Source: Cephalotus follicularis
Lineage: Eukaryota > Streptophyta > Magnoliopsida > Oxalidales > Cephalotaceae
Direction: 5' to 3'
Length of the DNA stretch: 64,000 nucleotides
NCBI GenBank assembly: GCA_001972305.1
Contig: BDDD01001494.1
Coordinates: 140,699 to 204,698, forward strand
The position numbers and the translations under genes are program-made. Positions 22,090 through 54,060 of the stretch are shown here, piece by piece (position 1 is the first letter of the stretch; each line of letters begins with the position of its first letter). The notes beneath the pieces were generated by a model that did no database searches, was not told the origin of the DNA, and saw nothing but the letters and a program-made list of their open reading frames with translations.

Positions 22090-24127
22090 TTAAACATATA
22101 ATACAGCGGAAAAACTTTGTTCTTATTACATATCAAAACATTTATGCAAACATCGTTGCATAGCCTTTCTTTCACAAAAACTCATTCTTAAGAGCTTCCT
22201 GTAAGCTCATAATCTCCATTCATTCATTTCCTGAAAACATTTTATTTGAAAACAACATTGAAAGGAATGAGCTCAAAATAGCTCAGTAAGGTGTTTTTAT
22301 AGTAAACACATTTCATCATAACATTTTTCTAGTCAATACATATAACTAGAACATTTCGTAAAGCCTATCACTTTTCTAATTACAAACTTGTAACTAGAAC
22401 ATTTCATAAACATAGAAGTCATAAAAACCTTAATGAACCATTTACACCACTTCACCGGGGCATTGTGCACTCCCCGACTACGATCCTTACATCACATGCA
22501 TGTCCGTGAGCATCTCGCTCCATTAACATTGAGCATCTCGCTCCATTCCCCTTGGATCGTAATCCAAGGGCGGTTCATTCATCATATGCTTTCAGTGATC
22601 AGCTCAAAGCATTCATAAAAATCATTTCATAACATTTCTTTCACAATTCATAACCTTTCTCTTCATTTGAGTTATTGACTCAAATGATTACATAAAACAG
22701 TTTTGCATAGCTTTACTGAAACTGATAATTCATATAGGAATAAGAATTTTCAGAGAAAACTTAAAACAGAAACATTAAAGTAGACATCTTTAAGAATTCA
22801 GAAAGCTCAAGATCATAACAATTGGTTAAGAATTGAATCCGCTATGAATTTTTGAAAGTGGCTGGTTCCATAAGAAAATAGGGCATGAGCAGTAAAATGA
22901 ATCATTGATTCTCATCAAGAATTTGACATAATTTCGAGATACATAAAACATAACAGTTAAAGAGTACATCTTAAGGTTTTCAAAACATCCAACCATTTAG
23001 TTTTTTATCAAGAAACGAGCAAGATATGATTTAAATAAGTTGCTGCATAACCCAGGAATAAAATAGTCCCCAGACAGCAATTTAAAACATTGATTTTCAT
23101 CAAGAAATAGATAGAATCTTGAAACGTGCAAAGCATAAAAGTTAAAGAGGACATCCTAGCGTTTCCAGAACATTCAACCATTGAAAAATTCATCAAGAAT
23201 TGAGGAAGATATCAATAGTACATAACTTTGAATCAAAACAGAGGAAGCTTTGACATAAATGGGTATAGGAATTCCTTACTTTGCTTTAGAATTTCGTTCT
23301 CTTTTGCTCTCCGACGAATTCTTCACTTCACTCTCAGCAGGAGCACTTTCCTTCTCAGCCAAAATGACTGAGTTCAACCTTCTTTTCCATTAAATAGAAG
23401 GATTACTTGGGAGGCAAGTCTTCTCCCCTTCTCACACAACTCAACTCTCTCTCTTGGCAGCCCATGTTCTCAAATTCAACCAATCCAAGTGATGACACTT
23501 GTTAGATCATATGATAACATCTCATATCATCCTTACCTGTCCTGCCACGTGTCCAAAACTAAATATTTTCACTCACAAAATGCCAAAAAGTCAGATTTTG
23601 CATTTTGTCTGTAGCTCAAAGCGTCGACGTTTTCTCCCTAAGCGTCGACGGTCACAGGCTTGACCTGAGTTCTCCACTTCTATCCCGACTAAAGCGCTGA
23701 CGCTTTCTTACAAAGCGTCGCCGCTTTAAGTCTTCGTCCAGGTCAACTGACACACTTGACTTCAATGCGTCTACGGTTTCAATTAGAGCGTCGTCCGTTG
23801 CCCAAATGCGTTGACTCTTTCTCGTAAGCGTCGCCGGTGTGAGGGCTTTGTCCAATTTACCGTTGCACTAGTTTAAAGCGCAGATAGAAGGGGTCTAAGC
23901 GTCGCCCGTTACTACCCAAGCGTCGACGCTTGAAGTGGAACTGTCGGCGCTTAAGACAGTTTTTTTCCTTCTCATCACTTAGCCAAATTCCATTTTCTTA
24001 TGGGGGCGTTGCCCCCGAACCACCGAGCGTAGGGTCAAACTACGGGTCCCTTGAACTATTTGCCAAAATACATACTAGCAATCATTTTCCATAATTAATG
24101 TCTTACATGGAAATTTGGGTCATTACA
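22090..24127 (-). mobile_element. LTR I fragment, minus strand
   Basis: The right end at 24127 is an intact LTR start (minus-strand TGTAATGACCCAAATTTCC), placed inside the protease of H. The left end is truncated near 22090, soon after a TTTTTCCGCTG-type word usually found about 100 bp before such LTR ends. It carries its own palindrome array (23624-23947). A GAGCATCTCGCTCCATT word is repeated near 22508 and 22532. No gene is seen. Confidence 0.75.
23624..23947 (-). repeat. GCGTCGACGC-type array in LTR I
   Basis: Cores (the TCGA position) fall at 23624, 23645, 23697, 23718, 23770, 23791, 23811, 23831, 23902, 23923 and 23944. Within groups the spacing is 20-21 bp; between groups it is 52-71 bp. 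The best copy is the perfect palindrome AAGCGTCGACGCTT (23918-23931). Others are decayed (GCGTCGCCG, GCGTCTACG, GCGCTGACG). Confidence 0.88.
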
Positions 24128-24480
24128 CAAGGGAATACCTGCCATAGACATCTCACAACTCCTATATACCTAATCAGTGTACATAGAAGTCCAAGTCGGT
24201 GTACTCACATCAAGCATATATTACATGCAGTCAGGGGTAACATCTAAGCAAGATGCAGAACGTGCAGATATAAAAGAATGTGATGCTCCAGAATCCATCA
24301 ACACCCTAGTAGAAAAACCATAGATATACAAAGTACCTCCAACAACAGAAGTCGACTCTGGAACCTCTGTCTGAGTAAGTACAAAGACTCTGCCTTTTGC
24401 GATGCCCTTGCCGGTGTCTCTCCTCTGTGATGGTCCCGCTGCTGCACCACTACTACTCCCAGGCCCAGTAGGTGCTGCAG
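24128..24480 (-). pseudogene. Element H protease remnant
   Basis: Minus-strand translation gives GTLYIYGFSTRVLMDSGASH followed by SFIS, an intact-looking DSGA active site of a retroviral-type aspartic protease. Two internal stops follow, then SCEMSMAGIPL, where LTR I interrupts it. The sequence is close to the B3 protease (56780-56990). Confidence 0.9.
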
Positions 24481-25525
24481 TTGAACTCTACAGACAATCT
24501 CTCACTGAATGGCCAGATGCCCCACATCGTAAACACAACCCATTCTTCGCCCAACAATCTTTCACTTGATGACCTGAACGACCGCAATGAAAGCAAACAC
24601 CAGACCTCGCATTACTCCCTTGACTCAGAGTACCCTGTGTAGCAGTCTGGTCTTGGAGGATTTCGTCGAAGATCCACTGCCCTCCCATTTTGAGGAAGCC
24701 GGTCTAGACTGTGTTGGGCTCTGTTTATTCTGCTGTGCACGGGCCCTCTCTACTCGGTCTTCACTAGATATACTCTCCAGCAGTCTCGCTTTTTGAGTGA
24801 CTTCTGAAAAAGTCCTCAACTCCATGGCCCTGGTCCTTGACAGAAGATCTGGTCGCAGACCTCTCATAAGCCTATGTATCTTCTTCACTTCATCAGCTAC
24901 CAGATAGGGTGAATGTCTGGCTAGCTCCATGAACCTTGCTTGATATTTTTCCACTGTCATCTCTCCCTGACGAACTCAAGGAGTTCTGTCTCCCTCCTCT
25001 CCTGCTCAATTCAAGGAACATAAGTCTCCATAAATACTGTTTGAAACCTAACCCAGATACTGTTGAGCCCGATGGACTTCGATTTTTCTTTGATCATCTC
25101 CCACTGGTGGGTGGCCTCTCCCCATAGACGATATACGGCGAACTTCAATTTCTGATCGTTTGTATAGTCCATCACATCAAATATCTTCTCCAAATCCTGT
25201 AGCCATCTCTCCGCAATGGTGGCATCGAGTTCCCTCAAAAACTGGGTGGATTTTGCCGCATGAACCTCTCAAGGCCCCTCCCAAACTGACTATCGTCCTC
25301 CCCCTAGCAATGGTCCGGAGCCCTATGTCGTGGCCGAGCCTACGCGTAGTATTGGCGCATCTTCTCCGCATTAGCCATATTAAAGGCCATCTGCTGCTGG
25401 AAATAATCTGCGATACGGACCATCAGATCCCTCTCATCCTAGGGAACATTCACTCCTTGCAGAAAATTTGCTCCCTTAGGGGCATTTTCTCCAGCAACTC
25501 TAGCACGTGTTCTCCTTCTATCCAT
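24481..25525 (-). pseudogene. Element H Gag, broken
   Basis: The start at 25525 (MDRRRTRARVAGENAPKG) matches the Gag start of B3. Blocks follow in several frames: ELDATIAERWLQDLEKIF, LKFAVYRLWGEATHQWEM, TVEKYQARFMELARHSPYLV, SEVTQKARLLESIS, and two zinc knuckles (CFHCGRSGHQVKDC and CLRCGASGHSVRDC). Frameshifts near 25240, 25000 and 24640 break it. Gag would form the particle shell and bind element RNA. Confidence 0.9.
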
Positions 25526-25602
25526 TCTGTCTCCTATAAGGAAATGATATACACTATCATCAGGAAACATTTTATTAATTGCCAAGGAAAATATCCTAGC
25601 TA

Positions 25603-25630
25603 AGCATATATGGAATATGCTCTGATACCA
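25603..25630 (-). promoter_or_regulatory. Primer-binding site and hairpin of H
   Basis: GCTCTGATACCA (25619-25630) is the complement of the tRNA-Met primer site. AGCATAT (25603-25609) and ATATGCT (25615-25621) pair and overlap the inner end of the primer site, as in B2. Confidence 0.88.
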
Positions 25631-25633
25631 TGT

Positions 25634-25906: not shown

Positions 25907-28553
25907 TGTCACACCCCGTTTAAGAGAAACGTATCATTAAACCAGTAAAGGCAATTATCACAAAATACAGCTCATACAAAAACTATAAAATTTAAACTTT
26001 TAACAAGCTGTCAGTTAGGAAGCATAAAATCCATAAGATGTAACCCGTAGCGTGCATCCCATACTACACGCTACTCAAAATAACCCATCATCATTAATTG
26101 CCCATAAACGGAGCGTGATTATAGTACAAGTTTAAACCCCTCACAAGTTACATCCGTAAGAACGGTACATCAGAAACCCTTAACAATTCAGTTATTACAT
26201 AACAGGAGAAGTAAAACTAAGAACAATATAACACTTGCTCTTCGTCCATGCCAATCCAATAGTCCGCTGCATCAATCTGTCAAGTAGGGGGTTAGCCTTT
26301 GTCCTCACTCGGCCAAGTCATAAAAGTAGTTCGGGATTAAAATTAAATGCATGTCATGATGTGAATGCATGAATGATGCAGTACAGTAGAAATTTCAGTT
26401 TGTATATATACGAAAATATATATATTTGACAGTACGGTAAATATCACTGGGTACATATATAAGAAAATATATGTATGCAGAAATAGTACAGTAGTAACCC
26501 GGTCAGGGCTACATCAACAAACACAGTAATGTCCGAGAAGGACCAACAGGCAGTACAGGATGTCCACATAGGACCACAACAACAGGCAGTATGTGTAGCG
26601 CCGCCAACTCCTGGCCCCACGCTAAACTCCCACTCCGGTCCCTACTTCAGGAAACCGAGCGAGGCAACAGTACAGTGAGTTACCTAGCCATGCTCCTGGC
26701 CCCTAGGTCAACCCTACCACTAGCCGGCGCTGGCAGCCTCCGCCATGCAACTAGTGGCTCAAACACAAACACATAGCAATTCACAGAGCAAACAGTGAAT
26801 TCAAGCAGTAGCCGTATAGTAAACAGGACAGTAGTGATCGGTTAGATCCACAACAGGCAGTTGTTTTCCAAAATGTTTTCAAAAGTGACAACATTTGAAA
26901 ATAGGCATTTTCAGTAGAAAATACTTTTAAACAGTACAGTGGTGGAAAACGCTTTCCAAAGATACTTGAAAATACGATATCAATATTCGTTTGTACTCAA
27001 AATAGCAGTTTCAATTCAAATATGCATTTCTAAGGTAACAACACATTAGAAATCATAGTTCGGGTACAAACAGTACAAACAGGCAGTAAAACAGTACATA
27101 TGCAATGCATACAAATGCTCAAATGCATCCTAGTAGGAATCAGGATCGTTTCGCATCGTTTTAGGCAAAAAGCAGTCCAACCAGTCAGCTGGAATCCTTA
27201 CCAGTCGACTGTTTCTGGGTCGAGCACTATCAGTAGTCTACTGGTTCCTTCTACCAGTCGACTGTCCATTAGGCAGTCGGCTGTTGTTCCTCAACAGTCG
27301 ACTGTTACAGTACTCTCACACGAGAACATTCCCAGATTTTCATCTTTTGGGAAGTACGAAGTATGAATAGTAGACTGCTTTCCATTTGCACTCGACTGGT
27401 ATCAATGAGTAGTCGACTGTCTTCCTTCGACAGTCGGCTGCTCTGCTAAGCAGTGGCATGCAAAATCGATCTAACTACTCCAACGAATCATGGTAAGCAG
27501 ATAAATCAAGCTCAGGGATAGGAATATAACCACAGGTTGTCATATCATTCATATAACAACACATTCAACATGTATTTCAACATGCAACCAATTCCATGTT
27601 AAGGTTCAACATGCATACACTTGATCACATTTGATTCTCAATAGGCAGGCATAGCAGTGGAAAACAGTAGCAACCACATCCAAAATTCAGTGGCTACAAC
27701 TCACAAACCAGGCATTTCAAATCATAGACCATGTAGTACTATTAAGCTCAAAATACCATTACAACTTCCCCTACCTTTTGATTCCAAGTTAGGAATCTGT
27801 AAGTCCACCTCTTTTCGTTCCAATCAGTGACGTTCTAAGCTCTCCAGAAGCTCCAACTCCAAGCTCAGCAGCTCCAAGGATAGCCCAACAGCTCCAACTT
27901 GAGCTCCAAGCTTCAACAATGGTAAAAACACTCTTCTTCCCTCTTTTCTTTGTGTCTTTCCCTACTGTTTTCTCTGGCTCTCTAACCTTTCAGTACCAGT
28001 ACGAGGGAGGTGAGTGAAGACGTTTTTATGCAGAGTCTTTCTTCCTTTCCTTCCTTCACTCCTCACATGGCACTAAATGTCACACTCTCCCATTCACATG
28101 CATGCACACACTCACAGAGCCAATTTCTCTACCCCATGAAGTATTGCATGATCCACAGGTGCCCCTTACATCCCTTCCTCCGGCTGCATGAGGCACAGAT
28201 GGCACCTTCTTCCAATGTCAGTTGCAACATGTGATTTCAGTCACATGCAATAAACAGAGCATGATCCAGTCGACTGCCTTTCCCTGGTAGTCGGCTGTTC
28301 GCCTGGCAGTCTGTTGCCAAGTGTCACGACAGTTGGCCAGTCGACTGTCCCTATATGCTGCCATCCACTCGGCTGGTCCTCCATGTCAGTCGACTGCCTA
28401 CAGTATAATTACCAAGTAATCACACTTCTAAGTATATAATTGATTAAGATCAACATCACCACAATTTGGGAAAACATCATCATTTTATTAACTCCACAAA
28501 TAAGGTATAATTACATTGTGAAATTACATCATATGAAAATTACGGGCGTTACA
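25907..28553 (-). mobile_element. Complete solo LTR of family D (2,647 bp), TSD ACATT
   Basis: Plus-strand ends are TGTCACACCCCG and GGGCGTTACA. ACATT at 25902-25906 is repeated at 28554-28558, and H LTR sequence is continuous across it. A solo LTR with a perfect TSD means an LTR-LTR recombination removed the internal part. It holds palindrome arrays (27182-27440 and about 28266-28400), the GGTAGGGG module on the minus strand near 27770 and the hairpin near 26285-26320. Confidence 0.95.
27182..27440 (-). repeat. Palindrome array in solo LTR D
   Basis: Group 1 starts at 27182, 27202, 27234, 27255, 27274, 27295; group 2 at 27368, 27389, 27410, 27431. Spacings are 20, 32, 21, 19, 21 and 21, 21, 21. 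Members include CAGTCGACTG, CAGTCGGCTG, CAGTCAGCTG and TAGTCTACTG. Confidence 0.93.
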
Positions 28554-28558
28554 ACATT

Positions 28559-30802
28559 ATCCCAATAATACAGCTATCCAAGTAAATTAATCCGTTACAA
28601 TAACCGAAAATCCATCGGTTACAACAACATAACACAATAAAAGTTTAGCAATTCCAATAAGAGTTACAACTCCACTGGCTAACATTATTACAATTATGCT
28701 TCTCCACGCGCATCCATATAGGTCCCATTACATCAATCTGAAATGTTGGGGGTTAGTCTTTGCCCTCACTCGTTTAAGTAGCAAAGTTATAAATGCAGTT
28801 CGGGGTCAATAATAATGAAGTCATGTATGAATGCACAATGATGCCATACACAGTGTATAACAGTACATATACATACATTTTATGTATATTTATCAGTATA
28901 ACCAAACCTGTCCTCAAGGGGACCACTCAAATACAATCAGTACAAACAATGTCCACGTTACTCGCACGGTGACGGTAACAACAGTCCGGACACGGTAAAC
29001 GGTACTAGTATGGCTGCTAAGTACCAACAGTACCCCGCTAACGGCAACAGTGGAAAACGATACCCAGCACGGTGGCTAAGTAACAGCAATACCCCGCTAG
29101 TGGCAACGGTAACAATCACATTCAACAGTCAGCTCAAGTGATGCATAATTATAAACACTTGAAACAGTAATATCGATGTATAGCCATCTCTTAAACAGTG
29201 CACAATATTTGGAGATTACTTCCCCCGTCAATTTAAAAAATATATATATAATTTGGTACAAAATAATGATTTGTTTTAAAATCATATATAAACTTCTAAA
29301 ATGAGAAAACATTTTAGAAAACAGTTACAATTCGTTTCGCAATTCAGTTAACAATACGATATATAATGCAAACATATGCTCATAATGCATCTAAGATCGT
29401 TGGCGTCGTGCTTATGTCTATCGCTTCCTCCACGGTCGATTTTTCCCCTGAAATAGTCGGCTGCTTTCCATAACAGTCGACTGTGCCCTTGGGTTAGTCG
29501 GCTGTCTTCCTTACCATTCAACTAATCTGGCACGAGTATCAACAGTCGGCTGTCTTTCTTCGACAGTCGACTGTTCTAGGCGAACAACACATGCAGAGTC
29601 GACTATTCTTCATAATAGTCGGCTGTATACCTTGAGCAGTTGATTGTTGTACCTCAACAGTCGGCTGTTCTACGAAAAACAGTAGTACTCAATTCATACA
29701 TTTTGTTCAACATTCAATTACAAACCATTCTACCATATTCATTTAATAGAATATCATAAATTAATTATTCACAGTCCACAGACATAACTCAGTTCATGCA
29801 TTTTCTCAGTTTTATCTCAATATCGGTGGAAGCTAATCATGGTAATGCATGAAAACAAATCATTCTCAATTAAAACTCAGTACACATATCATGTTAACAA
29901 TCAACAGTAAGCAAGATATTTGCCCTTTTGATTCACAGTCCATCAACCATACGATTCATCCATAATATCACTATTTTTAAACTGAAATAGCATGCATAAT
30001 ATCTCCACAATTTTCCCTACCTTTGATTTAAAGTTAGAAATCTGTAAGTCCACCTCTTTGTGTTCCAACAGTAAAGTTTTGAGCTCCCGAGAAGCATCAA
30101 CTCCAATCCAGTAGCTCTAACTCGTCACCTCCAAACTCCGATTGGTTAAACAATTTGAGAATCTCTCTCTGTTTCTCTCATGATTCCTCACTGTTTTTCT
30201 CTGTAACTTCTCACTGTTTTCTTTCCTTTCATGTACTGAGCGAGAGAGGTGAAGAGGAGACCATTTTATGCAGGCACTTCTCTGTCTCTTTTCTCCAACC
30301 CATTTCCATGGCACTAAATGCCATCCCTCTCTCACATCTGCATGCACACACCCACATGACTTATTCTCCCTGTCTCATGACCTGCATGGCGTACAAATAG
30401 TCACTCTTCCCTTTGCATTGGCCGTATGACACACAGATGGCACACCCTTCCTCCTTGTCAGTCGTTGCATGTGATCTTGTCACGTGCAACAAAACAGAGC
30501 ATAATCCAACCGGCTGTTCTTCCCAAACAGTCGGCTGTCTGCTTGGCCGTGGTTGCCAGGTGGCTCGACAGCCGCCAGTCGGCTGGTTCATCCAACCAGT
30601 TGACTGTTCCATTAAACAGTACACCAGTCCGCTGGTCAATTGTACTAGTCGACTGCCTTAGTCAACAATTCAGCCTCTAAGTACCTTAATTTTATTTTGG
30701 AATCAATATAATAGCCGGAAACATCATCTCTCTCATTAATTAAATAACAAGATTACATTTGAAATTCAAATATTACAATATGAAAAAATCTCGGGCGCTA
30801 CA
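28559..30802 (-). mobile_element. 5' LTR of H, second segment
   Basis: This continues the H LTR after the D insertion to the LTR start (minus-strand TGTAGCGCCCGAGATTTTTTC at 30802). It contains palindrome arrays at about 29455-29670 and 30508-30660. With 25634-25906 it makes an LTR of about 2,517 bp. No gene is seen. Confidence 0.92.
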
Positions 30803-32812: not shown

Positions 32813-35331
32813 TGTAACACCCCAGATTCAGAATCGGGATCACTCCCGATTCGGGATCGGTGGTCACACAAAACTGAGCTAAAAACATGTCAAAAATCTT
32901 AATCTTAATCATCATCAATACGCGATGCTTTTAAAAATCTGAAAACATGTATAATACTTAATATAAACTCCAAAATCAAAAATTAAGTTCATAACACCGG
33001 TCAACATATGATCATAATACAATTATTATTCAAATGACAGAATCAAACTCCTAAATGATCCTCTAACATAGGGTAACTCTTTCATCACACTTGCCCCATA
33101 AGCTCCTGATACATGCCGCATGAAAAACAAAACGCGGCTGAACAAACCTCAGTAGGGATATAAAATCATAAAACAATTTACGAACAAAACAGAACAGTTA
33201 AGAATCAAAACAGATTTCGTAACCAAACAGATTTTGAAATGAAACAAAACAAAACAGTTTAGACATTCTTTATAAATTACCTCATTAATTTTCGTGTAAA
33301 CCAATTCCATAACTTTCAAAACATAAAGCATACTTTTCAGAACATGGAGCATACATTTCAAAATCATATAGTTCCATACTTTCCATAACATAAAGAATTC
33401 CTTTCAAAATCATATAGTTTCATACCGAGCCACATAACATATCACATATCAGAACACATATAGCAAAGGATTCATGACGTCCACATGCCAAATAGAATTG
33501 AAGTGTACAGCACTACACAAACAATTGCATATCATAACATATCACACATTGCATAACTCATCACGTATGCTATATACTAGAATCGATTCATACGCCTCTA
33601 TCATACATAACAGATCCATAAATCCACCTCATGGGATTTATTCATAACATACAGAGACCTCGTAGACTAATCACACCGCTACGGAAGTGTCATGTCCCCG
33701 TGCCAGGCCTACGACAAGCCTATGGTATGCCCCATAGATGGTTACAATACTCAGTATTTTGCCATTCGAAAACATTGATTTATCATAATCAATTAAAATT
33801 CATATAGAAGGCTTTTTAGAAATATATTCAAAAATAATAGTTATCAAACGAGTCGATCATATCATATTTCATAACATATCATAAAAACAAAGCTTAATTT
33901 ATCGAAGAAAGTGTCAAAGAGCAGAATATCCGTTTATCTCATTAAAGCAAAATAGATTTAATTCAGATAAAACTGAATGATAAACAAAATGAAGAATCCT
34001 TATTTTACTCACAAAATGAAACCGAAATTATACTCTAATAAAATCGATAATAGTGTACCAAGAAACGAAGAATCCGTACCTCATGCGATAACAAAAATAA
34101 CCTCAAGAATATATATCAATAATTTTCTAGACCGCTCCTCAGTTGTGGCAAGTATCTAACAGAAATAAAATTGTTCTCATAAAGACTTGAAATAAAAGCA
34201 GGCATCAACTGATGGGCCACTGTACACTGATCATGACCATATAAGATAATGATAGGTTTGCTAAGTCCAACTTGCAAAAACCACATCTAAACATAAATTC
34301 ACTAAATTCAAGCGGTCGTCTAGGTCATTCAATTTTGAATCATAAAACCGTTTCAGCTCATAAAATTGCAGAAACAGATACTTAATTACATAATTCAACA
34401 GAAAACAGAATTTAACAGAGCAAAGTTCAGTGTTTGCCGAAAGCAGACAGAATGGAGTACAGAGCCATAATCACACCGCGGAATTGGAACGGATCACACC
34501 TATGTGGAGAACGGAGTCGGAAAAGCTGTCTAAAACGTGTCGTCGGAGACTGCCGACTCGTGGGCTCACACAACGCTGGCCAGCGCATGTCTATCATGTG
34601 CGGTCACCAACCAGTAGTAGGAATGGGCGGATCTGAAGCATTGGAGGTCAGGGATCACATATCCAGGGTGCGTTTGCAACGGCGCCGCCGCATTTGGGCC
34701 GAACAAACGCATTTGACCGCGGATTACTTCACCGCCGATCTGCGTTGCCGGCGTAACCAAGGGTCGGGGTCGGTCTGGTTCACTTCATCTCAACCAAGGA
34801 CTCTGAATATGAGCTTGCCTTGTCGTGTCGATCACCGGAGCAGGAGAATCGATGCCAATCATATGCGGGAGAGAGAAGACATCGCGCACGCCGCACGGGC
34901 CATTTGCTGGCATGGGGATGGCTTCCGGTGTACTCAGGAGGCTGTGGGGGTTCGACCGGTACCTTCGCCACCGTCATATTGGTACCGACGCTGACGGCAG
35001 AGGCTGAGAGGGAGAGAGAGAGGGAGAGAGGGTGGCGGGGAGAGAAAGTGTGTGGGTGAGAAAAGAGAAAAAAATATAAAAATAGGGTTTTTGATTTTTT
35101 TTAAATGCTGAAAATGGTTTTAACACTCCAATAAAAAAATCCAGAATTGTTTTATTTATTCATAGACTTGATATCAAAACCCACTAGGCTAAGGGTAAAA
35201 CCCACTTAGCCCAACCAAGAGCAAAACAGACCGAAAATGGGTAGTCCACATACCGAAAAAAAATATCGACAGCCCACACAAAATAGCTTTAAAAAGCCCG
35301 AAAATTTTATACAGAAAAACAGGATATTACA
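32813..35331 (-). mobile_element. 3' LTR of J (2,519 bp)
   Basis: The plus-strand ends are TGTAACACCCCAG and GGATATTACA. It matches 44219-46729. A GC-rich block at about 34430-35040 stands out from AT-rich surroundings and ends in a GA-rich tract (about 35005-35050). The twin hairpin of the A type is at about 33115-33155. I saw no regular GTCGAC array in it. Confidence 0.92.
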
Positions 35332-36501: not shown

Positions 36502-39181
36502 TGTGATACCTTGTTCGTTCGTAAATATATTTTACGAAATTTATCTGTGTTTTCGGGCTTTTAATTTTGTTTAATTTTAAAAGTCCGGTTGCCCTATGAT
36601 CGGGTTTATGTGAATTGTGCTGTCTGATATTAGTCCGATATTTGGGTATGTTATGCTATGTTGGGTTTTGTTTATTTTATTTTAATCCAAAAGTATTTAT
36701 TAAAAACAATTTATTTACCTTTTATTTTAAAATTCCTTAATTCTTTTTATTCCTTAATTCTTTAAATTCCTTTTTCTTATTTTATTCTTTTTCTCCCACA
36801 TTTCTCCTACTTCCTCCCACTTTCTTCCTACCTCTCTTCTTCTTTCCCGAAATTCCCTCTTCCTACCAACAAAAACACATGTTAAAGCTTCCTTTTCCTA
36901 ATTCAAAATCCAGAAAAAGCCTCTTTCTTCCCCTTTTGATCAAATCATGTCTCCTCCTTTATCCATTATTAGAGTACCTTTGCTATATTATATGTTGCCC
37001 ACTTCTTTCTTGTAAGCCATTGGCAAATTCTGCATTGTGGGTGTGTGATAAGCTACTGTGTATTTGTGTCATCAAATTCGTAGAGGTAATCTTGATCCTG
37101 TTGATGTTATTTTGAGATTGAATTCATTGGGTTTGCTAAACTTCACTTTGTTCTTGGTTTTCTTTTGGTTTTGGTCTCTTTGCCTCTGTTTTTGTCACAG
37201 CAGATTGTGTGTTTGTGCTTGTGTTCCTCCTACTATTTTCTGTGTCCTTAACATCACTACAGGACAGTGAATTCGTCATTTTTATAATGGTTTTGTTGTT
37301 ATGTTGAGAAAATTGAGTTTTTAAGCTCTTAGTGTCTTGGGGTCTTTGATTCTTACCTAAAAGTGTTGTCATTGCGTTAGTAATGTTATCTGAACGTTTT
37401 ATGCACCTAAATATGTCACAAACTGAGTTTACAACATCTATAATCAATTAGAAACAAAATATGGACATGTTCATGCAATGTCTTCTTGCTTCCTTTTGCA
37501 AAGTTAAATCATTGAAAGGTCATTTCCTTATCAAATTTGTGTTTTTATGTCACCTACAAGTCATATATAATCATATGTTTATGTACATATGTCTCTAGTT
37601 TAATGTAGAAATCATTTGAACCATTTTCAGTAGCAAATCGTCAGATTTCCAACTATTCTGTCGCCCAAAACAGTCGGCTGTCTCAGTGGACAGTCGGATG
37701 GAATGGTTGTGTAGTCGACTGGAGGGAAGAACACAGTCGACTGCCTGCATTTTTTAATTGTGTAGTCGACTGTTCATATGGTCCAGTCGACTGGACCCCT
37801 GTTTTAGTCGACTGTTTTGCCCTGGAATGTGCTGTTTTCAACTGTTTTGATTCGTTTGATCCCCGAATCGATCCGAATCTTTTCCAAACACTGTTAAGAG
37901 TCTGTTTAATGCTTCTGATGTGTTTTAAACTCTTATTCATATGATTTTGAATGCCTTTTAGATTGTGTACTTCAAAGGAGAATTTGTTTTTGATCGCCTA
38001 TTCATAAGTACTTTGCAAGCGCATAAGGTACGAATTTTCTTTTCCTTGGCTATCTGACCTTCAAACTGAAACTGTTTTGATAAGCATCTTCGTTTATGAA
38101 ATCAATGATGTTTCATGATTTTGATACGTTTCGAATTTAAAGTTGGTTTGACATTTTAATTGATTCCGACTTTATATATACGATATGTATGGTACGATAT
38201 GTTATGATATGATATGTTATAATACTGTTGTGAGCAGTTTTTGAATATGTTGTGTGAAAACATATTTATGTGATTTAAGTTGATTTTGATAAATCAATTA
38301 TTTTTTAATTAAATAATGAGTATTGTACCCACCTATGGGGCGTATCCATAGGCACGTCGTGGGCCTGGCACGGGGACGTGACACTTCCGTAGCGGTGTGA
38401 TTAGACTACGACGTCTTTGATTGTATGAACGAATCCCGTGAGGTGGATTTGTGGATCCGCTATGTGATAGAGGCGTATGAATCGATTCTAGTTTATGTGA
38501 TCTGGGGTGAATTCAGATATGTGGTCCGAGGTGTGATCGAACATGTGTATGTGAGAATTGACTTGTGTAGTGCCGTACACTTCAATTCTAGTGAGCATGT
38601 GGAATTAGCGCCTCCCTTGCGAAAATTTATGATATGTGATATGAATATGGCTCAGTATGTTTTAAACAATTATGATTTCGATGCTCCGTAATTGTTCGAA
38701 AAATATGCAATTGTCATTTGAATATGATTAAACTATTTTATCTGTTAAAGATTTCTGTTAGTTTATTATTGGATTATTAACGTTTTTAAATTACAGTTTA
38801 CTATTTTAATTCCCTTATCCGTACTGAGGTTTGCTCAGCCGCGTTTTGTTTTTTTTTTCATGCGGCAGGTTTTCAGGAGCAGCGGGGGAAAGTGTGATTG
38901 AGTGATGACCACCCTATGTGTTGGATCCTTAGGAGAGTGATCCTTATGTTAATTTTAGTGGTCTGAAACATGGATTTTTATGTTTTACGTTTTAAATTGG
39001 AACTGATTTATGTTTTGAATTTTCCGCAACTACTTAATATGTTAAATGTTAAGTTTTAATGTTTTGATAACACTGCCACGTTTTTGGTTGTTTTTGGCTA
39101 ATAAAGCAAACTTATGATTTGTTATGTTATGTTATGTATGATATGACCCTGTGACGACTCCCGCCGTCCGGGGGTGTTACA
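36502..39181 (+). mobile_element. 5' LTR of C (2,680 bp)
   Basis: It starts TGTGATACC, where the 3' LTR has TGTAATACC, and ends GGGTGTTACA. It aligns with LTR A throughout, including the palindrome array and twin hairpin. Relative to the 3' LTR it retains about 690 bp (about 37256-37956). Confidence 0.95.
37671..37814 (+). repeat. Palindrome array in the C 5' LTR
   Basis: Motifs start at 37671, 37691, 37712, 37734, 37763, 37784 and 37805: spacings 20, 21, 22, 29, 21, 21. Compared with A it has lost about two motifs but kept the pitch. The 3' LTR of the same element lacks the whole array. Confidence 0.94.
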
Positions 39182-39187: not shown

Positions 39188-39199
39188 TGGTATCAGAGC
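39188..39199 (+). promoter_or_regulatory. Primer-binding site of C
   Basis: TGGTATCAGAGC, six bases after the LTR end, is complementary to the 3' end of initiator tRNA-Met. The next bases (GAGG, then TTTGAATGG) already belong to the RT/RNase H region, so leader, gag and protease are deleted. Confidence 0.92.
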
Positions 39200-39623: not shown

Positions 39624-40003
39624 NNNNNNNNNNNNNNNNNNNNNNNNNNNNNNNNNNNNNNNNNNNNNNNNNNNNNNNNNNNNNNNNNNNNNNNNNNNNN
39701 NNNNNNNNNNNNNNNNNNNNNNNNNNNNNNNNNNNNNNNNNNNNNNNNNNNNNNNNNNNNNNNNNNNNNNNNNNNNNNNNNNNNNNNNNNNNNNNNNNNN
39801 NNNNNNNNNNNNNNNNNNNNNNNNNNNNNNNNNNNNNNNNNNNNNNNNNNNNNNNNNNNNNNNNNNNNNNNNNNNNNNNNNNNNNNNNNNNNNNNNNNNN
39901 NNNNNNNNNNNNNNNNNNNNNNNNNNNNNNNNNNNNNNNNNNNNNNNNNNNNNNNNNNNNNNNNNNNNNNNNNNNNNNNNNNNNNNNNNNNNNNNNNNNN
40001 NNN
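39624..40003. other. Assembly gap (380 N)
   Basis: A run of N from 39624 to 40003 lies inside the pol of C. By comparison with A (1320-1449) the true sequence could be as short as about 130 bp, so 380 may be an estimate or hide an extra insertion. Confidence 0.99.
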
Positions 40004-41509: not shown

Positions 41510-43507
41510 TGTAATACCCTGTTCGTTCGTAAATATATTTTACAAATTTTATCCGTGTTTTCGGGCTTTTAATTTTGTTTAATTTTAAAAGTCCGGTTGC
41601 CCTATGATCGGGTTTTTGTGAATTGTGTTGTCTGATATTAGTCTGATATTTGGGTATGTTATGCTATGTTGGGTTTTCTTTATTTTATTTTAATCCAAAA
41701 GTATTTATTAAAAACAATTTATTTACCTTTTATTTTAAAATTCCTTAATTCTTTTTATTTATTAATTCTTTAAATTCCTTTTTCTTATTTTATTCTTTTT
41801 CTCCCACATTTCTCCTACTTCCTCCCACTTTCTTCCTACCTTTCTTCTTCTTTCCCGAAATTCCCTCTTCCTACCAACAAAAACACATGTTAAAGCATCC
41901 TTTTCCTAATTCAAAATCCAGAAAAAGCCTCTTTCTTCCCCTTTTGATCAAATCATGTGTCCTCCTTTATCCATTATTAGAGTACCTTTGCTATATTATA
42001 TGTTGCCCACTTCTTTCTTGCAAGCCATTGAAAAATTCTGCATTGTGGGTGTGTGATAAGCTGCTGTGTATTTGTGTCATCAAATTCGTAGAGGTAATCT
42101 TGATCCTTTTGATGTTATTTTGAGATTGAATTCATTGGGTTTGCTAAACTTCACTTTGTTCTTGGTTTGCTTTTGGTTTTGGTCTCTTTGCCTCTGTTTT
42201 TGTCACAGCAGATTGTGTGTTTGTGCTTGTGTTCCTCCTGCTATTTTCTGTGTCCTTAACATCACCTTTTAGATTGTGTACTTCAAAGGAGAATTTGTTT
42301 TTGATCGCCTATTCGTAAGTACTTTGCAAGCGCATAAGGTACGGATTTTCTGTTCCTTGGCTATCTGACCTTCAAACTGAAACTGTTTTGATAAGCATCT
42401 TCGTTTATGAAATCAACGATGTTTCATGATTTTGATACGTTTCGAATTTAAAGTTGGTTTGATATTTTAATTGATTCCGACTTTATCTATACGATATGTA
42501 TGGTACGATATGTTAGGATACGATATGTTATGATATGATATGTTATAATACTGTTGTGAGCAGTTTTTGAATATGTTGTGTGAAAACATATTTATGTGAT
42601 TTAAGTTGATTTTGATAAATCAATTATTTTTAACTTAAATACAGAGTATTGTACCCACCTATGGGGCGTATCCATAGGCACATCATGGGCCTGGCACGGG
42701 GATGTGACACTTCCGTAGCGGTATGATTAGACTACGGCGTCTCTGAGTGTATGAACGAATCCCATGAGTTGGATTTGTGGATCCGCTATGTGATAGAGGC
42801 GTATGAATCGATTATAGTTTATGTGATCTGAGGTGAATTCAGATATGTGGTCCGAGGTGTGATCGGACATGTGTATGTGAGAATTGACTTGTGTAGTGCC
42901 GTACACTTCAATTCTAGTGGACATGTGGAATTAGCGCCTCCCTTGCCAAAATTTATGATATGTGATATGAATATGGCTCAATATGTTTTAAACAATTATG
43001 ATTTCGATGTTCCGTAATTGTTCGAAAAATATGCAATTGTCATTTGAATATGATTAAACTGTTTTATCTGTGAAAGATTTCTGTTACGTTATTATTGGAT
43101 TATTAACGTTTTTAAATTACCGTTTACTGTTTTAATTCCCTTATCCGTACTGAGGTTTGCTCAGCCGCGTTTTGTTTTTTTTTTTCATGCAGTAGGTTTT
43201 CAGGAGTAGCGGGGGAAAGTGTGATTGAGTGATGACCACCCTATGTGTTGGATGCTTAGGAGAGTGATCCTTATGTTATGTTTAGTGGTCTGAAACATGG
43301 ATTTTTATGTTTTACGTTTTAAATTGGAACTGATTTATGTTTTGAATTTTCCGTAACTACTTAATATGTTAAATGTTAAGTTTTAATGTTTGATAAGACT
43401 GCCACGTTTTTGGCTGTTTTTGGCTAATAAAGCAAACTTATGATTTGTTATGTTATGTTATGTATGATATGACCCTGTGACGACTCCCGCCGTCCGGGGG
43501 TGTTACA
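41510..43507 (+). mobile_element. 3' LTR of C (1,998 bp), array deleted
   Basis: It starts TGTAATACCCTG and ends GGGTGTTACA, followed by TSD copy CTGTC. It matches the 5' LTR closely but jumps at about 42265 from AACATCAC to CTTTTAGATTG, a deletion of about 690 bp that removes the entire palindrome array. Its twin hairpin is also decayed (ATGCAGTAGG). Confidence 0.95.
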
Positions 43508-44218: not shown

Positions 44219-46729
44219 TGTAACACCCGTGATTCAGAATCGGGATCACTCCCAATTTGGGATCGGTGTGTCACACAAAACTGAGCTAAAAACATGTGAA
44301 AATCTTAATCTTAATCTTAATCATCATCAATACGTGGTGGTTCTAAAAATCTGAAAACATGTATAATCCTTAACATAAACTCCAAAATCAAAAATTAAGT
44401 TCATAACACCGGTCAACATATGATCATAATACAATTATTATTCAAATGAGAGAATCAAACTCCTAAGTGATCCTCTGACATAGGGTAACTCTCTTATCAC
44501 ACTTGCCCCAGAAGCTTCTGATAACCGGCCGCATGGAAAAAAAAATGCACCTGAGCAAACCTCAGTACGGATATAGAATCAAAAAATAGTTTTTGACCAA
44601 ACAGAACAGTTACGAATCAAAACAGATTTCGAAATGAAACAAAACAAAACACTTTAAACATTCTTTATAAATTACTTCAGTAATTTTTGTATAAACCAAT
44701 TCCATAACTTTCGAAACATAAAGCAAACTTTTCAGAACATAAATCATACATTTCAAAATCATATAGTTCCATACTTTTTAGAACATAAAGCATTCCTTTC
44801 AAAATCATATAGTTTCATACTGAGCCACATAACATATCACATATTAGAACACATATAGTAAGGGACTCATGACGTCCACATGCCAAATAGAATTCAAGTG
44901 TACGGCACAACAAAAACAATTCCCATATCATAACATATCACACATTGCATAACTCATCACATATGCCATATGCTAGAATCGATTCATACGCCTCTATCAT
45001 ACATAACGAATCCATAATTCCACCTCATGGGATTTATTCATAACATACAGAGACGTCATAGACTAATCATACCTCTACAGAAGTGTCATGTCCCCGTGCT
45101 AGACCTACGACATGCATATCGTACACCCCATAGGTGGGTACAATACTCAATATATTTCCATTCAAAAACATTGATTTATCATAATCAATAAAAATTCATA
45201 TAGAAGGCTTTTTAGAAATACATTAAAAAATAATCATTATCAAACGATGTCATTTTTTCATAGCATACATTTTCATAATCAGAAATCAACTCATTTATTT
45301 TCCACTATAAAAGAGATGATCATATCATATTTCATAGCATATCATAAAAACAAAGCTGAATTTATCGAAGAGAGTGTCAAAGAGCAGAATATCTGTACAT
45401 CTCATTAAAGCAAAACAAATTCAATTCAGATAAAGCTGAATGATAACAAAAACGAAGAATCCGTATTTTATTCGCAAAATGAAACTGAACTTATACTCTA
45501 ATAAAATGAATAAGAGTGTATAAAGAAACGAAGAATCTGTACCTCATGCGATCACAAAAATAACCTCAAGAATATATATCAATAATTCTCTAGACCGCTC
45601 CTCGGTTGTTACAAATATCTAACAGAAATAAAATCATTCTCATAAGGACTTGAAATAAAATCAGACCTCGACTCATGGGTTACTGTACACTGATCATGAC
45701 CATATAAGATAATGATAGGTTTGCTAAGTCCAATTTGCAGAAACCACATCTAAACATAAAATTTCGAATTCACTAAATTCAAGCGGTCGTCTAGGTCATT
45801 CACTTTTGAATCATAAAACCGATTCAGCTCATAAAATTGTAGAAACAGATACTGGATTACATAATTCAACAGAAAACAGAATTTAACGGAGCAAAGTTCA
45901 GAGTTTACCGAAAGGAGACAGAATGGAGCACAGAGCCATAATCACACCACGAAATTGGAACGGATCACACCTATGCAGAGAACGGAGTCAGAAAAGCTGT
46001 CTAAAACGTGTCGTCGGAGGCTGCCAACGGTTGGGCTCAAGGGCCGCCGCTCGCTGGCCCGTGTTTATCACGTGTAGTTGCTGACCAGTAGCAGGAAAGG
46101 GCGGATCTGAATCTTTGGAGGTCAGGGATCACATATCCGGGACGCGTTTGCCACGGCGCCGCGGTATTTGGCCGGAACAAATGCATTTGACCGAGGTTGA
46201 CTTTATCGCCGATCTGTGTTGCTGGCGTCGCCAAGGGTCGGGGCTGGTCGGGTTGACTTCATCTCGACACCAGGAGTCCGAATATGGGCTTGACTTGTCG
46301 TGCCGATCACTAGAGCGGGAGAATCAATGCCAAAAAGATACGGGAGAGAGAAGACATCGCGCATGCCGAAGGGGCCGTTTGTCGGCATGGGAATGGCGTC
46401 CGGAGTACTCAGGAGGGCGTGGGGGTTCGACCGGTACCTTGGCGCCGATGACAGAGGCTGAATAGGAGAGAGAGCGGGAGAGAGATTGATTTTTTTTTAA
46501 AACGCTGAAACTGGTTTTAACACTTAAATAAAAAAAAGGCCAAAATTGTTTTATTTATTCATGGACTTGCTATCAAAACCCACTAGGCTAAGGCTAAAAC
46601 ACACTTAGCCCATCCAAGAGCAAAACATACCAAAAATGGGCAGTCCACATACCAGAAAAAAATATCTACAGCCCACACGAAATAGATTAAAAAAGCCCGA
46701 AATTTTATACGGAAAAATGGGATATTACA
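44219..46729 (-). mobile_element. 5' LTR of J (2,511 bp)
   Basis: It matches the left LTR with scattered substitutions and small indels, and repeats the GC-rich block at about 45900-46470. Ends are TGTAACACCCG and GGATATTACA; TSD copy ACCAT follows at 46730. Confidence 0.92.
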
Positions 46730-50474: not shown

Positions 50475-50720
50475 CGCCAGGGGTGCCGAGGTGACATGCA
50501 CCCGAGGAGATGATGCCCGAGGTGACATGCGCCCGAGGGGATGGTGCCAGGTGACATGCGCTCGAGGAGATGGTGCAAGGTGACATGCCCCCGAGGTGCC
50601 GAGGTGACATGCGCCTGACAAGATGGTGCCGGGGTGACAGGCGCCTGAGAAGACGATGCCCGAGGTGACATGCACCCGAGGAGATGGTGTCGAGGTGACA
50701 TGCGCCCGAGGAGATGTGAT
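50475..50720. repeat. GC-rich minisatellite in LTR K
   Basis: About seven imperfect units of roughly 30-38 bp, built on GAGGTGACATGCGCCCGAGG and GAGATGGTGCC. Related scraps continue to about 50880. Confidence 0.88.
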
Positions 50721-51479
50721 GCCAGGGCAGACATGCCCGAGCTCTTCTGCCAATGCCTGGGGAGCCATGTGCCCGAGGTGGTGACTCTAGAGGAGTCATG
50801 CTGGGATGACATGCCAGGAATGTGATGAGCCAGAGGTGACAGCGCCTGCGAGAGCAGGCGCCGAGGTGACAACGCCAGGGGTAACATATGCTCTTCCCTA
50901 CCATGCTCGCGTTGTGGTACTCCTCTACTCTCGCCGAGCATGAAATGGTACTAAGTTCTCCCCTGCCATGAGCCAAGTATGCATGCTATGCATGCATTGT
51001 TCCCTGGAGTTATCCCCTACATGCACCTACGTGGAAAGGAAATGGAATATGAGTACGTATATGTCCCTTGGCATGACCTCCCTGTATGCGTTCACGAAGA
51101 AGGGAGTTGGATAAGTACATGCATACATCCCAGGCAGGTAATTATGTGATGAATATAGCCTTGCATGCGCCATGCATCCGGGTCTTGTGCATGGGAAGGC
51201 ACCATGCACTCCTTTATACCCTGGTCAGACTTAAGGAATGAATAAAGAATGATAAAGGAAAGGGAACAAAGAAAGGAAATTAAATAGGTATGTATGCGTA
51301 TCCTGAGTAAGTATTTAAGAGATGGATAGGGCCTTGCATGCTCCATGCATGCGTCTTGGACGTGGGCCTAGTGCATGGGAAGGCACCATGCACTCTTTTA
51401 TGTCCGAGATATGTTAAGGAAAATGAAATGAATGGGATAAATGGGATGTAAAGGAAAAAGGATATTTATAGATGGTCCC

Positions 51480-51715
51480 AGGCAGGTGAGCCCAACAGGG
51501 GAGAATTCCGCTGAGCTAGTGAACCCAATGGGTGAATACCACGAGGCAGATGATCTCGGGCGAATCCGCAAATGGTCAACATAAAGGTGTATTCCGCCAG
51601 AGCTGGTGATCCAAAGGGTGAACCGCCAGAGCAGGTGACCAAAGGCCGAATTCTGCTCGGCAGGTGAACCTGGAGGAGATTTCTGCGGGATGGTGAGCCT
51701 AAAGGTGAACCTTAT
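51480..51715. repeat. Second degenerate repeat block in LTR K
   Basis: Five or six loose units of about 35-45 bp of the type CAGGTGAACC, then GGTGAATTCCGC (for example near 51484, 51523, 51603, 51635, 51661). Confidence 0.6.
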
Positions 51716-52276: not shown

Positions 52277-52288
52277 TGGTATCAGAGC
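52277..52288 (+). promoter_or_regulatory. Primer-binding site of K
   Basis: TGGTATCAGAGC, five bases after the LTR end, is complementary to initiator tRNA-Met. The overlapping hairpin of B2, B3, G and H is not obvious here. Confidence 0.92.
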
Positions 52289-52428
52289 CGTACTATTCTG
52301 GATATGCCGGGATAGGACCCTTGGCAAGTGAAATAAGATACATGTGTGGATATTGACCCGTTCTTTTATGAATCGGAATGGAAGGATGACAAAGTAAGAA
52401 CGTACGAGGAGAGAGGTCTGGGCCGTCA

Positions 52429-52636
52429 ATGAGACGTACCCGTAGAAATAAGGAAAGATAAGAGGAAGTAAATGTGGCTCATGGAGCCGAAGCTGCTGCT
52501 CCAACACGACAGGAACCCAGAGGACTTATGAGGAGAATACGGGCGATGATAAGTTAAATGTATGAGTTATGCAACGTATATGTTAAAAAGGTGAAGCGGA
52601 ACACTGGTGGAAGATGATTGAGTCTTCTAGGGACAC
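52429..52636 (+). pseudogene. Element K Gag, N-terminal remnant
   Basis: The ATG at 52429 starts MRRTRRNKER followed by a stop. Further on, AHGAEAAAPTRQEPRGLMRR and EAEHWWKMIESSRDT are readable, the latter being the conserved capsid block (E-A-x-H-W-W). Several deletions and stops break it. Element B3 is inserted right after the GACAC target. Confidence 0.82.
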
Positions 52637-52810
52637 TGTAACACCCGGTGTTTTCCTGAATGTAATATTTCCATTTATGATGTAATCCTTAAACTTGATT
52701 TAATGAGAGTGTTGAGTTTTGAACTCAAAAGATGCTTGCAAACCCTACTTATGACTTTGGTAATGGAATGTGTGTTAAAAGCTTTAAACGACACTGTTTT
52801 GGAAAAATGA

Positions 52811-52954
52811 CATCGACGACTTTTGTAAAGACGTCGACGCCTATTGGAACCAGGGTACAAGTGAATGGAGGGACATGCGCATCGACATGGAGAGAAGACA
52901 TCGACACTTTCTTACAAAGTACAAAAGACATCGACGTCTAAGGAAAGACGTCGA
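52811..52954 (+). repeat. First GACATCGACGTC-type array of LTR B3
   Basis: TCGA cores lie at 52813, 52834, 52882, 52901, 52931 and 52951: spacings 21, 48, 19, 30, 20. The best copies read AAGACGTCGACGCC and AGACATCGACGTCT. The sequence outside the TCGA core differs from the CAGTCGACTG class. Confidence 0.9.
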
Positions 52955-53698
52955 CGCCTTTGTAAGAATGGCCAGAACGTTCTTCATAGGCAGAATAACA
53001 TGCAAGGGGAATTGTTTAGAGGCTTTACCTAATGCCTTTTCAAGTGCGTTTAGACGTGTTGGGCATGTTGGTGTACTAACCAGGAGCACTAAAACCTACC
53101 CTCACATGGAACATGCAAGGAATTATGACATCCTATCATGCAACCTGCAAAAGGGAGATTAGAAAACAAAAAGAATGTGCAGAAAGAAGGAAAGTGGGAG
53201 AGATCTCGGGAGTGGCCTGCTAAATGCCAGAAGAAGGGTATTTGGGGAAGCCATCTGCATAAGGATAAACCTCCCCACTTCTCTCTCTCGTTTCAAAACA
53301 CCAGAAGGAAACAGTGAGTGTGTGTGTGCCATTGTTGAGTTTGCTTGGAGCTTGAGGTTTGAGCTCGTGGGTAGCAGTTGCTAAGAGATCTTGGAGTTGC
53401 TGGTAGCCAGAACGTGGAACTCAAAGAGGTGGACTTTCTGGTTCCTAACTTGGAACATTAAGGTAGGGGAAAGTGGTGAATTTATATGTGCATTTTGAGT
53501 TCTGAGTTAATGTACAGCATGGTGAATTCCATGTTAATGATTGGATTGAGATTCTAGACTTGTTGTAGTGTTACTGTGATACACTGAGTTGATCATGCAT
53601 GTACTATTACATGAATACGTGAATCTGTTGTGAAAAGAATGGATGTGATAATAGCTTGGCGTGTTAAATCGTGGAAAACACGTTCTGTGTTGAAAAGA

Positions 53699-54060
53699 CA
53701 TCGACGTCTTTATAAAGACATCGACGCCTTTTCTGGGGAATTATAGAACTGTGAAGATGGCTATTTAAGCCACTTGAGATCACCTGTATGATTTCGATTT
53801 GATGTTCTGGTTGTGTTCCTGTTAACCAGTAGCATGCCTTACACTTTTATGGTGGTGTATTCGTTTATATGAGGGATTAAAAGGTTGGATTTTACCCTCT
53901 AGAATCAAGGCTTGCGTACTGATACTCTCTGGTATGAAAAAGACATCGACGCCTTTGTATAAGACATCGACGTCTTTGGTTCGAATACGCCTGGGAACAC
54001 TTGCACATAGGGTTGATGTTTTAGGCTAAAAGACATCGACGACTTAAGGAATGACATCGA
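53699..54060 (+). repeat. Second GACATCGACGTC-type array of LTR B3
   Basis: Cores occur in pairs: 53701 and 53721 (20 bp), 53946 and 53967 (21), 54036 and 54057 (21). The matching 3' LTR array is at about 57981-58335; there the middle pair is reduced to one copy by loss, or non-gain, of exactly 21 bp. Confidence 0.92.

Follow-up and report, generated by a model that had tools for sequence, protein, structure and literature searches.

The present study describes arrays of short palindromic words in the long terminal repeats (LTRs) of retrotransposons of the carnivorous pitcher plant Cephalotus follicularis. The stretch analyzed, referred to here as the window, comprises 64,000 nucleotides (assembly GCA_001972305.1, contig BDDD01001494.1, positions 140,699 to 204,698 of the forward strand). 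It holds Ty3/gypsy elements nested in one another, with sequences for gag, a retroviral-type protease, reverse transcriptase, RNase H, integrase, and a chromodomain. Pfam domains matched in separate frames of the window, and gag, reverse transcriptase, integrase, and the chromodomain were found in order in one locus, L019. LTR limits were set where possible from TG...CA ends, primer-binding sites, and 5-bp target-site duplications (GACAC, CTGTC, and ACATT); the primer-binding site TGGTATCAGAGC is present at 39188 and 55441. The domain order with a C-terminal chromodomain, the TG...CA LTRs, the 5-bp duplication, and the tRNA primer-binding site are those of Ty3/gypsy chromoviruses. The long LTRs and the chromodomain may point to the Tekay/Del lineage. 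Rfam and tRNA scans of the window gave no matches.

Each site in the arrays is a near-palindrome of 10-14 bp with a common TCGA centre and one of three outer arms (AACAG/CTGTT, AGACG/CGTCT, or AAGCG/CGCTT), and both arms change together from class to class. We named the classes A (the reference class of a preliminary description of this DNA), G (its B/B3 words), and I (the words of its LTR I). The consensus is AACAGTCGACTGTT in class A, AGACGTCGACGTCT in class G, and AAGCGTCGACGCTT in class I, the left half of which is poorly kept. One arm position of class G is A in 18 of 24 window words, and the usual reading is therefore ATCGAC. The preliminary description had listed 17 cores, and all 17 coordinates carry a class word (11 of class I with 0-4 mismatches and 6 of class G with 1-3 mismatches). 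The TCGA centre that it had ascribed to all of them is exact in 9 of the 17; the other eight, all of class I, read CTGA, TCGC (three times), TCTA, TCGT, TTGA, or TCGG. The window contains 113 words with at most 3 mismatches, while approximately 4.6 were found in a first-order Markov sequence. In a generic palindrome scan, 44 of the 254 TCGA sites in the window had at least 6 of 7 positions paired, against 0-4% for other cores, except for ATAT (5%) and TATA (7%). TCGA was less striking in a 200-kb sample of the genome (20 stretches of 10 kb picked by coordinate, 7 of them from contig 1), at 37/553 (6.7%) versus 7.2% for TATA, 5.5% for ATAT, and 0-3.5% for others. No fourth word class was found in a generic palindrome-pair scan or by eye among the genome-wide GTCGAC-pair places printed.

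The words keep a pitch of 20-21 bp. In 38 arrays from the window and the 200-kb sample, near-duplicate arrays included, 89 of the 159 gaps were of this size (A, 52/73; G, 23/51; I, 14/35), and 1000 runs of random placement gave an expectation of 11.6 and a maximum of 22. A hand count of the printed plus-strand class I pairs of the genome placed 39 of 50 at 20-21 bp, although 14-28 bp were permitted. The spacing given in the preliminary description is correct within each group that it quoted, and the distances from one group to the next differ from it (class I array, 52, 52, and 71 bp; class G groups at 53702-54058, 225 and 69 bp). Longer gaps are also phased. The strongest period in an 8-26 scan of 59 gaps of at least 24 bp (five near-duplicate arrays dropped) was 10.0 (R 0.41), and at 10.5 R was 0.36 (p 0.0005 with uniform placement and 0.00125 with jitter). 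Odd half-pitches (31.5, 52.5, 73.5, and 94.5, within 1 bp) accounted for 16 gaps in four bins, compared with 11 gaps in seven out-of-phase bins. Since skipped sites cannot yield odd half-pitches, the helix itself seems to matter. The sites are thus spaced in multiples of approximately 10.5 bp, as are helically phased transcription-factor sites.

The classes rarely mix. Among unambiguous words (101 A, 51 G, and 28 I), neighbours within 100 bp belonged to the same class in 102 of 102 cases, and 32 of 37 arrays were wholly pure, where admission required at least 70% of words of one class. Pairs were also counted on the forward strand of the 1.577-Gb genome with reversed-pattern controls, the repeat counts being lower bounds. 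At least 38,225 class A pairs were present versus 137 in the control (at least 44,114 versus 123 with wider gaps), at least 11,559 class G pairs versus 45, and at least 3,757 class I pairs versus 6. In comparison with the A-A and I-I pairs, only 2 A-I pairs occurred in the pitch range in both orders. GTCGAC pairs of any kind numbered at least 204,663 versus 2,830, and the excess over the controls ranged from 72- to 626-fold. In the 200-kb sample, 18 of the 20 stretches held one or more words at up to 3 mismatches, of which lone 3-mismatch words can be chance, and 11 held arrays of three or more words with one dominant class. Pitch and pair counts thus bear out three discrete classes in the same helical phase, periodic across family members and throughout the genome.

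The spacers between words are far less uniform. At the 20-21 bp pitch, 85 of 100 spacers were distinct, and adjacent spacers were 45% alike (random, 35%) versus 76% for adjacent words. Word cores were 97, 84, 77, and 79% identical in the class A pairs L1/L2 (the LTRs at 2938 and 36502), L7/L9, L7/L6, and L9/L6, with spacers at 64, 66, 57, and 57% and flanks at 81, 59, 58, and 54%. Similarly, words, spacers, and flanks were 84, 76, and 71% identical in the class G pair L4/L5, and 95, 67 (6 bp only), and 70% in L4/L12. Among closer pairs (L7/L8 and L11/L11b, given below, and L10/L6 and L4/L4b), words hold no advantage over flanks or fall behind them; the two were 92 versus 88% identical in L10/L6, and 98 and 98% in L4/L4b. 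This contrast fits constraint on the words in living elements, which would be followed by decay after insertion. Such words and spacers are difficult to reconcile with a neutral origin, in which a 21-bp unit was duplicated in tandem and the classes are point-mutated descendants of one array. The slight excess in the likeness of neighbouring spacers and the recognition of some arrays by Tandem Repeats Finder are what such duplication would leave. However, most spacers are distinct while words are conserved, a change of class alters both arms at once, and homologous LTRs differ in their words and in most of the 5' flank when they belong to different classes. We rejected this candidate on the basis of spacer diversity, near-absent mixed pairs, and 5' homology that is mostly lost, and consider it very improbable. 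The two outcomes that the preliminary description had named as fatal to its proposal, namely, words that are not periodic across family members and one ancestral array behind all three classes, were thus not obtained: the words are periodic, and the near absence of mixed pairs disfavours a single mutated array.

The arrays occupy two places where the LTR start is known, with a short array approximately 150-320 bp and a long one approximately 1060-1430 bp from the start of LTRs of 2.5-2.8 kb (Table 1). Both places are filled in the class A LTRs at 25908-28553, 28554-30802, and 60509-63015 and in the class G LTR at 52637-55436, and each LTR is of one class. The class I LTR has only the first place. 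The family of 2938 and 36502 has only the second, of class A, and no detectable LTR similarity to the others. Repeats at 32813-35330 and 44219-46728 (LTR-like, 84% identical, starting with TGTAACACCC) have no array; their isolated 4-mismatch matches only (1 and 4) serve as an internal negative. TATA-like CATAAA is present at LTR offset ~524-563 in L6, L7, L9, and L10, and CATAAG at 622 in L4. In six LTRs, drawn from both class A and class G, a conserved block (TAG-TGCATT-TGAGCAT-TGT-TGCAT type) lies approximately 50-100 bp 3' of the main array.

Table 1. Array-bearing LTRs and associated features of the window (window positions; offsets within the LTR in bp)
Feature	Position	Strand	Remarks
Class I array	23625..23945	-	11 words, LTR offset 179-499
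Class I word centres	23625, 23646, 23698, 23719, 23771, 23792, 23812, 23832, 23903, 23924, 23945	-	
Class I LTR (LI)	20760..24124	-	start TGTAATGACCC at 24124, end TGTGACA at 20760; other sequence inside, ~21190-21671
Class G 5' LTR (L4)	52637..55436	+	element flanked by GACAC duplication; primer-binding site 55441
Class G upstream (minor) array	52814..52952	+	LTR offset 178-316
Class G main array	53702..54058	+	53702/53722, 53947/53968, 54037/54058; LTR offset 1066-1422
3' LTR of class G element 52637	57414..59682	+	first ~490 bp absent; class G words 57987-58322
Gag-protease open frame, class G element	55599..57413	+	Retrotrans_gag, RVP_2
LTR fragment, class G words 6096-6193	5899..6424	+	LTR offset 198-295
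LTR fragment, class G words 13183-13254	12766..13479	+	76% identity to LTR 52637 upstream of its main array
Class A LTR (L9)	60509..63015	-	words at offsets 169-310, 1152-1358
Class A solo LTR (L6)	25908..28553	-	target-site duplication ACATT
5' LTR (larger part), minus-strand element	28554..30802	-	class A words, offsets 152-270, 1140-1365
Class A LTR (L13)	6571..8949	+	words 6744-6765, 8018-8079; start not fixed, by eye TGTAATAACC at ~6568
Chromovirus-family LTR	36502..39181	+	class A main array 37675-37809, offset 1174-1308; duplication CTGTC with 41510-43507
Second LTR of the 36502 family	2938..5693	+	class A main array 4089-4264, offset 1152-1327
LTR region, class A words 14952-15153, 15906-15974	14568..16110 (limits approximate)	-	

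Class does not follow the coding lineage. The preliminary description had suggested testing palindrome class for association with coding lineage, and the chromodomains do not bear such an association out. The element at L019 (class G) and the element before the LTR at 60509-63015 (class A) are sisters with 82% chromodomain identity (support 100/99), and the elements at 2419 and 40991, also of class A, share 56-58% identity with both. The tree has 8 rows, of which L015, without words, was ungrouped; L011 was excluded on account of a chromodomain that is truncated next to other sequence. Shuffled class labels fit the tree equally well in 212 of 500 trials for class A and 216 of 500 for class I. 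Because the tree is small, it shows only that class A is split.

The LTRs themselves give more detail. In the part 3' of the arrays, cross-class identity was 76% between L4 (G) and L9 (A), and 80% between the L019 LTR (G) and L6 (A), while same-class pairs were 54-60% identical, not counting the near copies L7-L8 (93%). These two cross-class pairs were only 48% (L4-L9) and 54% (L019-L6) identical in the 5' segment, where other cross-class pairs gave 46-53% and reversed controls 42-47%; same-class pairs reached 52-69% in class G and 55-90% in class A. Sliding identity climbs approximately 70 bp past the last word in L4/L9 and 0-40 bp past it in L019/L6. In L13 (A)/LI (I), the climb begins 20-25 bp past the last A word, and LI has no words near there; in L005 (G)/L010 (I), it begins 310-600 bp past the last word. 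In all four cross-class pairs, approximately 75-88% of positions match 3' of the arrays, and similarity is lost across the arrays. L4/L9, L019/L6, and L005/L010 were followed from 34 cross-class flank rows, many of the remaining rows being overlapping stretches or nested neighbours, and L13/LI was obtained from LTR alignments. By LTR, the class A LTR at 60509..63015 is 75-76% identical to the class G LTR at 52637 over the 3' part, and the solo LTR at 25908..28553 is 78-80% identical, 3' of its array, to the class G LTR of L019. The 3' part of the class I LTR is 83-88% identical to the LTR ending at 8949, which matches it from 8105, 26 bp past the last word centre. The same-class control L1/L2 was 74% identical upstream versus 84% downstream.

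Of the two routes raised in the preliminary description, switching between classes is consistent with these 3' parts that match under different classes, and gradual co-divergence is not. The class apparently changed when the part of the LTR that bears the array was exchanged. The L019 LTR indicates how such an exchange may be bounded. Its first ~125 bp are 72-79% identical to the class A LTRs L10 and L6, whereas in the minor-array region it agrees with L5 and L4, both of class G, at 69-70%. Near offset 670-890, it has a block that is shared between classes (69-78%). The G arrays of L019 therefore look like a cassette set in an L6-like LTR and bounded on both sides. A single swap of the whole 5' half, by one switch in R, misfits L019 because 5' similarity is partly kept. 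Since one switch in R moves everything upstream, L019 needs two switches or gene conversion. The conserved block 3' of the main array, at LTR offset ~1400-1530 (e.g., 54115-54165), lies near two of the homology junctions, and it is possible that this block is the start of R or a template-switch site. In new copies of Arabidopsis ONSEN, LTR junctions mostly fit a first template switch in R, and one lies in U3 (PMC5668417, in the sections available). Similarly, the accessible part of the account of the fungal element crapaud reports U3 types that do not follow the internal region, and proposes gene conversion and recombination at template switches (PMC10787394).

In our preferred reading, the words are class-specific, helically phased sites for DNA-binding proteins in chromovirus LTRs, and they have been swapped between lineages as cassettes; we place the probability of this reading at approximately 0.57. 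The words, their pitch, the exclusivity of the classes, the shared positions of the arrays, and the loss of cross-class homology across them were observed directly and are all consistent with it. The words would be bound by proteins that recognize a dyad in the regulatory part of the LTR. Sites approximately two helical turns apart, or other whole turns, would allow bound dimers to stack on one face of the DNA, where they could bind cooperatively, and would presumably activate rather than repress. There would be one factor for each class, probably encoded by the host. For a lineage to change class, the stretch of another LTR that bears the array would be taken over as a cassette, whose 3' junction would lie at the array end or past it. 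The simplest routes would be a template switch between two RNAs packaged together and gene conversion.

The words may instead bind a protein encoded by the element, such as the integrase with its chromodomain or Gag, or the product of another element acting in trans, as VANC does. The lineage-specific motif arrays and the switching resemble VANC targets (PMC5735166, as far as its accessible sections describe them). However, different classes go with sister chromodomains, which makes it unlikely that class is determined by the pol of the element itself. Furthermore, no accessory gene was found from gag to the chromodomain in the one class G element followed, that of L019 (gag, 4525-5646; reverse transcriptase, 6505-7110; integrase, 7309-8315; chromodomain, 8634-9095; LTR starts, 1722 and 9146), which is not intact, its gag and pol being split over several frames. 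Besides gag-pol, antisense frames of 155, 111, and 105 aa lie between its LTRs. We consider a protein of the element itself, or of another element, to be improbable as the binding partner; judging from this one broken element, the factors are probably host-encoded or act in trans.

Several observations weigh against phased protein sites exchanged as cassettes. The left half of class I words is degenerate, and GTCGAC is usually not kept in class G, given the A in its arm. When words in the 200-kb sample were called by nearest class without the ambiguity filter, 13 of the 115 neighbours up to 120 bp apart were mixed. Word identity is inflated, since word cores were picked by motif likeness. In some closer pairs words are no better kept than flanks (L7/L8, 87 versus 93%; L11/L11b, 68 versus 91%). 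The class G pair L4-L019 is only 52% identical in the 5' segment, no better than cross-class pairs, and the segment between the arrays has little class signal. Similarity in the 5' part is not wholly lost across classes (first 70-130 bp and the block at 670-890, 69-79%), and L1/L2 is the only same-class control pair of comparable divergence. Moreover, RNA folding is stronger on the antisense strand in 11 of 13 arrays, and transitions in the words of classes A (48:10) and G (40:10), but not class I (22:24), are strand-biased such that antisense pairing is mostly kept. This bias tells against DNA sites because a symmetric dimer does not predict it. It is seen, for example, in the arrays at 61657-61863 and 52814-52952.

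The last two observations raise the question of whether the words act in RNA, neighbouring words pairing into stems that close loops of 6-7 nt or into a long ladder of stems. They would then be small-RNA precursors or dimerisation or packaging signals, and the classes would be pure since only like words pair. All 13 arrays tested fold more stably than dinucleotide shuffles on both strands (z -1.2 to -10.2), most transitions in class A and class G words are of the kind that retains G-U pairing in the antisense RNA, and maize Sirevirus LTR palindrome clusters coincide with small RNAs (Bousios 2016, as reported in the accessible part of PMC10760457). However, an RNA hairpin needs no pitch of 20-21 bp, and odd half-pitches are favoured as well, with gaps near 31, 52, and 73 bp. 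Common variants on the sense strand break pairing. Pairing would favour opposed half-variants, such as CAGCCGACTG-CAGTCGGCTG; the half-variants of adjacent words run in the same direction instead (20/22 in class A and 23/24 in class G). Tandem CAGCCGACTG pairs occur genome-wide at least 16,274/16,384 times versus 55/37 in controls, and sense-strand class A words have C at position -2 in 28 of 93 and G at +2 in 3. The orientation of the words relative to the LTR suggests that one half-site is the stricter. On balance, a role in RNA appears unlikely to us, and phased protein sites on DNA are the reading that we retain.

Another reading of such protein sites is that the words belong to a host silencing factor, class by class, or mark escape from one, as repressor sites or targets of RNA-directed DNA methylation (RdDM). 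Noncoding tandem motifs of VANDAL elements are targeted by both VANC and RdDM (PMC10398659, in the sections at hand), and class switching would permit escape, a motive that the preliminary description had also raised. However, the arrays are extremely abundant, and elements would be expected to shed repressor sites, yet word cores outlast spacers between families. Repressor sites that another function also requires may nevertheless be kept. We give silencing little credence as the role of the words.

The remaining features of the window concern the elements that carry the arrays and their surroundings. The class I LTR interrupts the protease of a minus-strand element. In the class G element at 52637, a seemingly single deletion (57414) has removed most of pol together with ~490 bp at the start of the 3' LTR, and the gag-protease frame now runs on into LTR sequence. 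Among proteins, the ten best matches to this frame (55599-57410) are all from Cephalotus follicularis, with 79-87% identity over 44-62% of the query. Both LTRs of the element carry a 30-bp tandem repeat of the TTGATTATTGGCCATCGTGCTAATAACCTG type (five copies at 54561-54711 and four at 58823-58945). A G+C-rich minisatellite with a period of ~30 bp (CCGAGGTGACATGC type) is located at 50482-50744, outside the mapped LTRs. A perfect 166-bp tandem duplication at 483-816, in a reverse transcriptase region, is a recent duplication or an assembly artefact, and a run of 380 N (39624-40003) falls in the RNase H to integrase region of an element.

Palindromic motifs in plant LTRs have precedents. The Sirevirus palindromes are nearest in kind to the present words, and VANC/VANDAL nearest in logic, as we compare them. 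In Sireviruses, which are Ty1/copia elements, each LTR can hold family-specific palindromes that are repeated many times and concentrate in its upper half, with differing flanks around one core that is common to all families but one (Vitis, CGGTCGACCG; the exception, Tnd-1, ACAATCGATTGT), according to the sections available (PMC2829016). The statement in the preliminary description that nothing of the kind was described in plant LTR retrotransposons was therefore too strong. As in Sireviruses, the copies described here cluster in the first half of the LTR (offsets ~150-320 and 1060-1430). In contrast, the host is of the Ty3/gypsy type by coding matches near the arrays, the centre is TCGA rather than CGG-CCG, and there are two arrays with a 20-21 bp pitch; Sirevirus motifs also occur upstream of the env gene. 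The accessible part of the Sirevirus account describes no helical pitch, exclusive classes in one genome, or class exchange between homologous LTRs (PMC2829016). VANDAL elements have short motifs in noncoding arrays that differ between related families, for which co-evolution with sequence-specific binding proteins was proposed in the parts available (PMC5735166, PMC10398659). However, they are Mutator-like DNA transposons that encode their own binding protein, and the motifs printed there are not palindromic, whereas the present elements are retrotransposons with no visible accessory gene (in one frame-broken element) and seem to exchange classes between lineages. The 5' LTR half of crapaud has likewise diversified into subfamilies independent of the internal region; that element is fungal, and palindromic word arrays are not described in the available text (PMC10787394). 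ONSEN provides direct evidence of LTR parts exchanged between family members, but within one Ty1/copia family and, in the text available, with no binding-site classes described (PMC5668417). Among the matches listed in our literature searches, no titles or abstract beginnings described such arrays in Ty3/gypsy LTRs, and none of the 20 papers listed, of 36 that matched the exact words, dealt with plant transposons by title. As far as these searches go, the helical pitch, exclusive classes, two-site architecture, and apparent class transfer between homologous chromovirus LTRs are new.

We tentatively propose, with less confidence than not, that these arrays constitute an address system, in which chromovirus lineages acquire three exclusive classes of operators from one another as LTR cassettes, and a separate trans-acting factor reads each class. 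If so, a lineage could change its regulator in one recombination event. Such a system would parallel in retrotransposons the motif specificity of VANC, though with no protein encoded by the element, and would extend over perhaps hundreds of thousands of site pairs in a single plant genome. One promoter architecture would have been re-addressed to three factors in the same genome, naturally and in replicate, and the mechanism of the switch could be seen. It would become testable how transposons give up one regulator for another, since the three words provide three baits and the junctions provide the route. Moreover, the more than 200,000 closely spaced GTCGAC pairs in this genome could be taken up by host genes.

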